Positions 25,870 to 27,482 of a stretch of 64,000 nt of DNA are shown here, piece after piece (position 1 is the first letter of the stretch; each line of letters begins with the position of its first letter). The DNA is taken from assembly GCA_022826965.1 (NCBI GenBank), contig JAJDTU010000011.1, forward strand, positions 1 through 64,000. Direction: 5' to 3'. The position numbers and the translations under genes were made by a program. Origin of the DNA: Dehalococcoidia bacterium (lineage in GTDB: Bacteria > Chloroflexota > Dehalococcoidia > Bin125). The notes beneath the pieces were generated by a model. The model was not told where the DNA came from. It did no database searches and worked only from the letters and a program-made list of their open reading frames with translations.

Positions 25870-26397
25870 TTAGGACCCGAGCAAGATCGTTCGGCCCTGC
25901 TGATATGCATCCAGCGCCCGTGTCTGCAGACCCTCAGTGCCGGCGCTCCCGATTGGATGATCGACGAGCGCGTAGCGAAAGTCCGGCATCCCAAGCGTCT
26001 TGGCGATCATCCGACCGGTCGGATCGAAGGGGTGAGTGCAGAGCACCAAGCCCGGCTTACCGGTCTGCTCGAACGTGATCCCGTCGTGCACACTGCACGT
26101 TGAGCAGGATCCTCAATCGCCCACCGCCGTGATCAGGAAATCGACGTCGTTGGCGATCCGTTCCAGGACCTGCGGATCGGCGATCCGACTGGCGTTGCGC
26201 TTGCCTGAGTCGATCACGATCTTGCAGCCCGCTTCACGCTCGAAGACCTCGGCGGTATAGCGCAACAATCTGTCGGCGTTGACCTTGCCGTTGGAGAACA
26301 GCCCGATGTTGAGGCCGTCCAGCCTGGTCAGGCGAGGGGCGGCCGCGTAGCCCGTCGGCGTTGGCTCGCCTGTTGGGTCAAACAGTTCCAGTGCCAT
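25870..26397 (-). CDS. UGSC-family selenoprotein, in-frame UGA at 26115-26113
   Basis: Translation runs from ATG 26397 (GGAG upstream) through TGA at codon 95 to the stop at 25870, 175 aa with selenocysteine at residue 95. Both sides of the TGA are in the same frame and form one protein: residues 1-94 end DFLITAVGD, then U-GSCSTCSVHDGITFEQTG and a C-terminal CTHPFDPTGRMIAKTLGMP. The U-G-S-C motif (U95, C98) is the signature of the UGSC (seleno)protein family, probably a redox site. A hairpin meeting the bacterial SECIS rules follows the UGA (26077-26111). A standard gene caller would split this gene in two. A nonsense mutation is the alternative but does not explain the hairpin. Confidence 0.85.
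26077..26111 (-). promoter_or_regulatory. bacterial SECIS-like element after the UGA
   Basis: Upper stem CGTGCA / TGCACG (six perfect pairs, 26085-26099) closes a GTG loop; the lower stem GATCC / GGATC (five pairs) starts two bases after the UGA, with an asymmetric internal loop between the two stems. The loop begins 19 nt after the UGA and has G as its first base, both within published bSECIS limits (16-37 nt; G among the first two loop bases). Confidence 0.7.
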
Positions 26398-26417: not shown

Positions 26418-27482
26418 TCAGCAGTCGAGGCAGACGCCGATCGCCTTGGTCTGGTAGATCGAGTTGCGCCCTCGGCTCCACGACGGCAGAAAGGCGGAGT
26501 GTCCTCCAGCCTCGCCGCCCGCGACGATCAGCAGAATGTCATCCGGGCTGCGTCCGCGATGGAAGCGTCCCAACGTGCGATCGTGGCCGCGCTCGCCTTC
26601 GGAGAGACCATCTCGGTCGAGACCCGCCGGCCACTTGCCCTTGCTCAGCATGTCGCCGGGATCCCGGCTGGCGTGCTCGAAGAGGTATGCCTGTACATCC
26701 CGCTTGGACATCCCGCCCGACGCAGCGATCTGCGCATGCTCCGGCGACATCACCACCAGCGATTGGCCATCGGTCAGCGCGCCCAGCGAGCCCATGGCGT
26801 CGGCGAAGGTGTCGAGCAGTCGCTCCGGGTCGCTGGTGTAGTGATTCTCGACGTTGTAGAAGCCCGACGCGGCGAAGACGGTTGCCGTCGAAACCTCCGG
26901 CGGGAAGCCCAACGACTCGTGCAGCGGCTCCCAGGGACTGTTAAGGATGTTCTCCGAGATGCAGCATGAGTACTTGCCCGGCCAGCCGGTGGTCGAGCGA
27001 TCGGAGATGCCGGGAATCATCTGGAAGATGTTCATGATCACCAGCCGGATCGCACGTCCGATCGTCGCATTGGCGCGATAGCCGGGTCCGAACACGTTGA
27101 CGCTGGCGTTCATCCCGATCTCGTCGCGGATATCGCCAGAGACGATCACGACCGGCGCCGAACCGCCGGTGCTGGCCGTCGATCCGTGGAAGTTGTACGC
27201 GTCCTCGTTCAGCCCCTCGAGCGCAGCGAGCACGGTGGGAAAGTACTGCGGTAGACAGCCCGCCATCACCGCATTGACAGCGGCCGACTGCACGCTGCAT
27301 TCCCGTCCGGTCGCCGGGTGACGGGCAACGATCTCCTCAGGCGGCCGTCCCGCCGCCATGAGGAGGCGCTCGACCCGCTCGCGTACCGGCGGAACAACCG
27401 GCAAGCCGTCGGTCCAACCCTGTTCATAGCAATAGTCGATGGCGGAGAGTTCGTCGTCGAGGATGTGAGTCTCGGTGGTCAT
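26418..27482 (-). CDS. conserved DGLPVVPP-motif protein, partner of UGSC protein
   Basis: A 354-aa protein with an N-terminal WTDGLPVVPPVRERVERLL motif, NAVMAGCLPQYFPTVLAA, GPGYRANATIGRAIRLV, WPGKYSCCISEN and a C-terminal CxxC (VCLDC). I recall this DGLPVVPP family being encoded next to, or fused with, UGSC proteins; here the UGSC gene follows after 20 nt. The function is unknown, and its own conserved Cys residues (CCISEN, CLDC) suggest a redox or metal role with the selenoprotein. A TAGACT box lies six bases before the ATG. Confidence 0.75.
   Translation of the reverse strand: MTTETHILDDELSAIDYCYEQGWTDGLPVVPPVRERVERLLMAAGRPPEEIVARHPATGRECSVQSAAVNAVMAGCLPQYFPTVLAALEGLNEDAYNFHGSTASTGGSAPVVIVSGDIRDEIGMNASVNVFGPGYRANATIGRAIRLVIMNIFQMIPGISDRSTTGWPGKYSCCISENILNSPWEPLHESLGFPPEVSTATVFAASGFYNVENHYTSDPERLLDTFADAMGSLGALTDGQSLVVMSPEHAQIAASGGMSKRDVQAYLFEHASRDPGDMLSKGKWPAGLDRDGLSEGERGHDRTLGRFHRGRSPDDILLIVAGGEAGGHSAFLPSWSRGRNSIYQTKAIGVCLDC

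Follow-up and report, generated by a model that had tools for sequence, protein, structure and literature searches.

In aquatic metagenomes, UGSC proteins rank among the most abundant selenoproteins, and their fusion with a domain named ‘Unknown_1’ was mentioned in the 2008 GOS paper (PMC2398784). A thioredoxin-like fold has been suggested for them in print; no biochemistry on any family member was found in the literature. The family (PF24696/NF041046) is recognised by a full-length profile, the UGSC motif and a bacterial SECIS element, and occurs in selenocysteine (Sec) and cysteine (Cys) forms. The nearest described enzymes are the glycine and D-proline reductases, whose GrdB/GrdF/GrdH and PrdB proteins (PF07355, TIGR01917, TIGR04483) carry Sec in a UxxC motif at the matching position and belong to two-protein enzymes. 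Here we analyse a stretch of 64,000 nucleotides from a Dehalococcoidia genome (hereafter, the window), which encodes a further member of the already known, uncharacterised UGSC family. The gene itself has all of the family features listed above and none that sets it apart.

A UGSC gene with an in-frame UGA

The gene occupies positions 25870..26397 of the minus strand and, read from 26397 to 25870, comprises 175 codons and a TAA stop, with a sole in-frame TGA at 26115-26113 (26113..26115, minus strand; codon 95) within the motif D-U-G-S-C. The first-pass annotation had joined two frames of the same phase across this TGA into one 175-aa protein with a U-G-S-C motif; re-reading of the frame gave the same coordinates, and the proposed family membership is borne out by a full-length match to PF24696 (157.8 bits against a cut-off of 25 bits, positions 1-170 of 172). 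The NF041046 score of 119.1 bits is slightly below the NCBIfam cut-off of 125. Within U95-G96-S97-C98, position 95 (U or C), G96 and C98 are invariant in 105/105 proteins; Cys98, the putative resolving cysteine (codon at 26104..26106, minus strand), is also invariant in a set of 44/44. Sec95 and Cys98, both at positions invariant in the 105 proteins, may form a selenenylsulfide.

The window's own assembly (3.0 Mb, 97% complete) encodes tRNA-Sec with the anticodon TCA, along with selA, selB and selD, which is the complete selABCD set that the first-pass annotation had proposed to look for in this genome. It contains four UGSC genes, each carrying one TGA. Its selD (L019) is itself a selenoprotein gene, with an in-frame TGA within CGGUGSK.

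Fifteen orthologues were compared, 14 from genomes of the same genus (the window counted) and one from a genome of the same family. All 15 retain the UGA and an intact reading frame before and after it, and the mean dN/dS of 0.15 upstream and 0.09 downstream of the UGA indicates purifying selection on both sides. Among the UGSC matches listed in 60 relatives, exactly one TGA was present in each. Close relatives in which the gene stops at codon 95 were looked for and none was found; all read through. Cys homologues were gathered by scanning named genomes with a Cys pattern, and the anticipated alignment of Cys with residue 95 was seen at 40 loci, in as many genomes of other groups (Actinomycetota, Pseudomonadota, Bacteroidota and others).

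The SECIS hairpin

The UGA is followed by an apical hairpin, CGUGCA-GUG-UGCACG (26085..26099, minus strand), whose loop lies 19 nt after the UGA (it starts at the 20th nt) and has G as its first base. Both the position and a comparative test uphold this element of the first-pass annotation; the lower GATCC/GGATC stem drawn beneath it is not conserved, with GGCTCC in most orthologues. We counted hairpins with a perfect stem, a loop start 16-37 nt past the UGA, G among the first two loop bases and a free energy of −5 kcal/mol or lower. Of 116 Sec genes, 84% had such a hairpin. The figure was 24% both for 675 codons drawn at random from these genes and for the equivalent codon in 41 Cys homologues (p = 7e-37 and 5e-11 for the two comparisons). 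In Sec genes, the loop mostly starts at nt 18-20 after the UGA.

The wobble bases of the sixth and eighth codons past the UGA pair with each other, TGG occurring with GTC, ATC or GCC and TGC with GTG. In Sec genes, the counts were 60 for G-C, 39 for C-G and 11 for mismatched combinations (Fisher p = 3e-19), and this link is absent from the Cys homologues (p = 1.0). Relatedness among the sequences inflates the p-values of the hairpin and covariation tests, but the contrast between Sec and Cys genes persists. Selection for pairing at synonymous sites is what a SECIS element predicts, so the covariation supports the hairpin. Folding of the window sequence alone lends weak support (z = −1.7, with folding spans of other extents favouring other pairings), and an Rfam search at the hairpin returned no known RNA family. 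By comparison and covariation, the window gene has the bacterial SECIS hairpin of its family.

Comparative evidence shows the UGA at 26115-26113 to be a putative Sec codon, which would be decoded by the organism's own Sec machinery under the direction of the downstream hairpin, and we consider the selenoprotein assignment of the window gene close to certain. Were the UGA a real stop or an assembly error, the locus would be a pseudogene or encode two separate proteins. This would agree with the two open reading frames delivered by a mechanical caller, but it is very improbable in view of the UGA and frame preserved in all same-genus orthologues, the purifying selection that persists beyond the UGA, the existence of Cys homologues and the covarying hairpin. 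Still less credible is a UGA read by suppression as Cys or Trp: the Cys homologues do indicate that Cys is tolerated at codon 95, but the genome has a complete Sec machinery, and conservation of the hairpin is confined to Sec genes.

The first-pass annotation had further predicted that automatic pipelines would report two fragments or a pseudogene, and a case in point for the former is plasmid pFER4 of Paracoccus ferrooxidans, for which two hypothetical proteins are listed that join through the UGA. This UGSC selenoprotein gene (L199:5396-5965) resides in a cultured carrier beside a gene for the partner protein described below and near selB, and its UGA is followed by the same hairpin. UGSC genes can appear split or mislabelled in public records.

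A constant partner protein

Twenty nucleotides upstream of the UGSC start lies a gene for a protein of 354 aa (26418..27482, minus strand), which matched no family in Pfam or NCBIfam; on plasmids, its counterparts are annotated as hypothetical or unannotated. With pairing defined as a partner gene on the same strand within 600 bp of UGSC, the partner adjoined 43/43 Cys genes, 25/33 Sec genes of relatives (of those without it, three lie at or near a contig end) and 28/28 UGSC genes in the regions examined in G045, a relative with an expanded UGSC complement (see below). As the sequences counted here are related, they do not represent independent events. In many homologues, UGSC and partner are fused into one chain of 530-590 aa, in both domain orders, and a natural fusion is modelled as one confident body (pLDDT 93.3, pTM 0.93). 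Foldseek and VIA searches with the fused model gave matches confined to the UGSC half, and PDB sequence searches with UGSC, partner and fused profiles found no relative. Association shows that the UGSC product works together with the protein encoded directly upstream; with a partner this constant, UGSC by itself probably makes up half of an enzyme.

The partner ends in a C-L-D-C tail (26421..26432, minus strand), found in 13/13 orthologues of this orthologous group, which may act as a thiol relay and recalls the one at the C terminus of ribonucleotide reductase. A second Sec at the terminal TGA of the partner, after CLDC, was considered and rejected, as TAG replaces TGA in orthologues.

‘Unknown_1’ is probably the same domain as the partner. 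Save perhaps for this mention in fused form (PMC2398784), the obligate partner of UGSC is undescribed in the literature found.

Several variants of the arrangement were observed. A second UGSC copy of the window's genome (L191:9195-13794) is surrounded by two tandem partner genes and a partner-like gene of 566 aa. A UGSC-partner fusion on a plasmid of Vibrio europaeus (L201:5221-6906) has the motif DMGTS, which lacks both Sec and Cys at the active position, and is perhaps a non-redox paralogue. Two actinobacterial Cys-type UGSC proteins (L055, L056) have extra C-terminal sequence, and that of Arthrobacter (L196) has a long C-terminal extension. A NifU-like domain was matched in 2/44 aligned UGSC proteins; judging from their length, these are probably L055 and L056.

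Relationship to glycine and D-proline reductases

The AF2 model of UGSC (pLDDT 94.9) consists of five alternating strand-helix units in a parallel α/β arrangement. The Sec residue is placed where strand three ends and the next helix begins. The structures that match this model best are flavodoxin-like, receiver and B12-binding domains. The model does not follow the β-α-β-α-β-β-α order of the thioredoxin fold. Matches to the de novo protein 8ju8 (Z 10.9) and to 8s7v_H (Z 10.2) were set aside as functional clues, as they reflect a common α/β arrangement.

Around the Sec, 27/44 UGSC members match GrdB (TIGR01917, best E 1.4e-6), 20/44 GrdF, 17/44 GrdH and 7/44 PrdB, with scores of single members of up to 17.6 bits, far below the curated cut-offs. 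An hhalign comparison with PrdB-like proteins of the same class aligned the Sec residues of the two families with each other, and likewise the Cys residues (E 0.002, probability 14%). PF07355 was absent from the UGSC profile matches, and a PDB sequence search found no GrdB or PrdB relative. These profile matches, weak but repeated, suggest that the Sec region of UGSC is homologous to that of GrdB/PrdB; a shared fold is not proven.

The likeness extends to the two-protein architecture and to thioredoxin genes close by in relatives of the window gene. In contrast to GrdB/GrdF/GrdH and PrdB, however, UGSC is recognisable as such a protein in its Sec region alone, and it also occurs in aerobes and haloarchaea. 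The partner is not detectably similar to GrdE or PrdA: run against the Grd/Prd models, it matched none of them, and a pyruvoyl mechanism is therefore unsupported.

The window's genome also encodes four PrdB-like (PF07355) UPxC selenoproteins (L113, L119, L121 and L122), a second group of the GRDB superfamily. They share superfamily and genome with UGSC but differ in the UPxC motif and in their greater length, and form a separate family.

Gene neighbourhoods

Genes for thioredoxin reductase or thioredoxin (trxB and/or trxA) were found within the flanks examined of about 10 of the 40 Cys loci, and near the pair in three of the annotated plasmid loci as well. The gene order in Arthrobacter is ABC transporter, hydrolase, phosphosulfolactate synthase, trxB, trxA, partner, UGSC; in Roseovarius, TRAP transporter, CoA-transferase, partner, UGSC, trxB; and in Variovorax, TTT binding proteins, trxB, partner, UGSC, where the UGSC product carries CGSC and is annotated as ‘hypothetical protein’. 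Haloarchaeal neighbours are a CoA-transferase, a CoA ester lyase and a TRAP binding protein, and in Methylobacterium and Bradyrhizobium there is a dicarboxylate symporter, with trxB upstream. Across relatives, the neighbour classes comprise TRAP, TTT, dicarboxylate and ABC carriers together with CoA-transferases.

The window pair faces an MFS transporter and an FAD enzyme across an intergenic region, and its opposite flank encodes an acyl-CoA dehydrogenase and Lut-type proteins. Neither trxB or trxA nor an uptake carrier adjoins the pair, whose neighbours do not point to a particular substrate.

Proposed enzyme and alternatives

We propose, with a probability of about 0.7, that UGSC and its partner make up a single enzyme of the type represented by the GrdB/PrdB (glycine/D-proline reductase) superfamily, with UGSC as the Sec/Cys catalytic subunit, fed by thioredoxin and acting on imported acids. 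Among the models considered it is the best supported, on the grounds of homology and gene neighbourhood. Sec95, at the end of the central strand of a parallel α/β domain, would attack or reduce a substrate held by the partner and would then be locked with Cys98 as a selenenylsulfide. Thioredoxin, or alternatively in this clade the partner's own CLDC tail, would reduce this bond again. A small carboxylate brought in by import, or a derivative of one, is the probable substrate, and different paralogues would serve different substrates.

The pair could instead be a detoxification or resistance enzyme, acting on organometals, organohalides or xenobiotics, and not catabolic. The MFS transporter across the window's intergenic region, the plasmid location of several homologues and the suitability of Sec for attacking C-metal or C-halogen bonds would all fit, but elsewhere the pair lies mostly among catabolic genes, namely those for carboxylate uptake, CoA-transferases and lyases, and we hold this role to be unlikely. 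The published guess of a general thiol oxidoreductase with a thioredoxin-like fold and a housekeeping or antioxidant function, to which the UxxC motif lends itself, appears more doubtful again: the confident model (pLDDT 94.9) alternates strands and helices in five units and matches flavodoxin-like, receiver and B12-binding domains, homology around the Sec points to GrdB/PrdB, and an obligate partner and up to 150 paralogues next to transport genes are unlike a housekeeping protein.

Expansion in relatives

UGSC is present in 99/294 genomes of the class, with at least 46 copies in one of them (G046). The genome G045 (5.0 Mb, 96% complete, 7% contamination) has 208 UGSC candidates; 150 were scored, and 150/150 were above the cut-off. 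All but four of these have an in-frame TGA, which amounts to at least 146 Sec-type UGSC genes. Two contigs of ~350 kb hold 18 and 20 copies, and many copies are partner fusions interspersed with SBP_bac_5 genes (L123-L151, L156-L175, L184-L190); in the regions examined, a gene for an SBP_bac_5 binding protein lies within 400 bp of 16/28 modules. Open frames of ~550 aa in this genome were considered as further fusions, and for most of those tested this was rejected, as they encode SBP_bac_5 binding proteins.

Seventy distinct G045 sequences all have Sec. Identity to the closest paralogue has a median of 70% and, apart from one locus sampled twice, none exceeds 85%; with identities this low, strain mixing is an unlikely cause of the copy number, and redundant strains were rejected as its source for these 70 sequences. 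SelB is present in G045, and no tRNA-Sec was above the cut-off among the 150 of 734 candidates scored.

The largest published bacterial selenoproteomes comprise 57 and 63 genes (PMC13188914), and at least 146 Sec-type copies in one genome would more than double that maximum of 63. The odds appear evenly balanced for the wider proposal that UGSC and partner make up a widespread and hitherto unrecognised class of Sec/Cys reductases that depend on thioredoxin and have interchangeable substrate specificity, with an expansion in one Dehalococcoidia lineage to ~150-200 selenoprotein genes per genome, many of them with their own uptake protein. The partner, the link to Grd/Prd and thioredoxin, and the cultured carriers now make it possible to test the function of this abundant, uncharacterised family. 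An expansion on the scale of G045 would suggest that the carbon diet of an entire lineage is shaped by its selenium supply and, if the wider proposal is true, it would represent a scavenging metabolism based on selenium, with a selenoproteome larger than any other known from bacteria.
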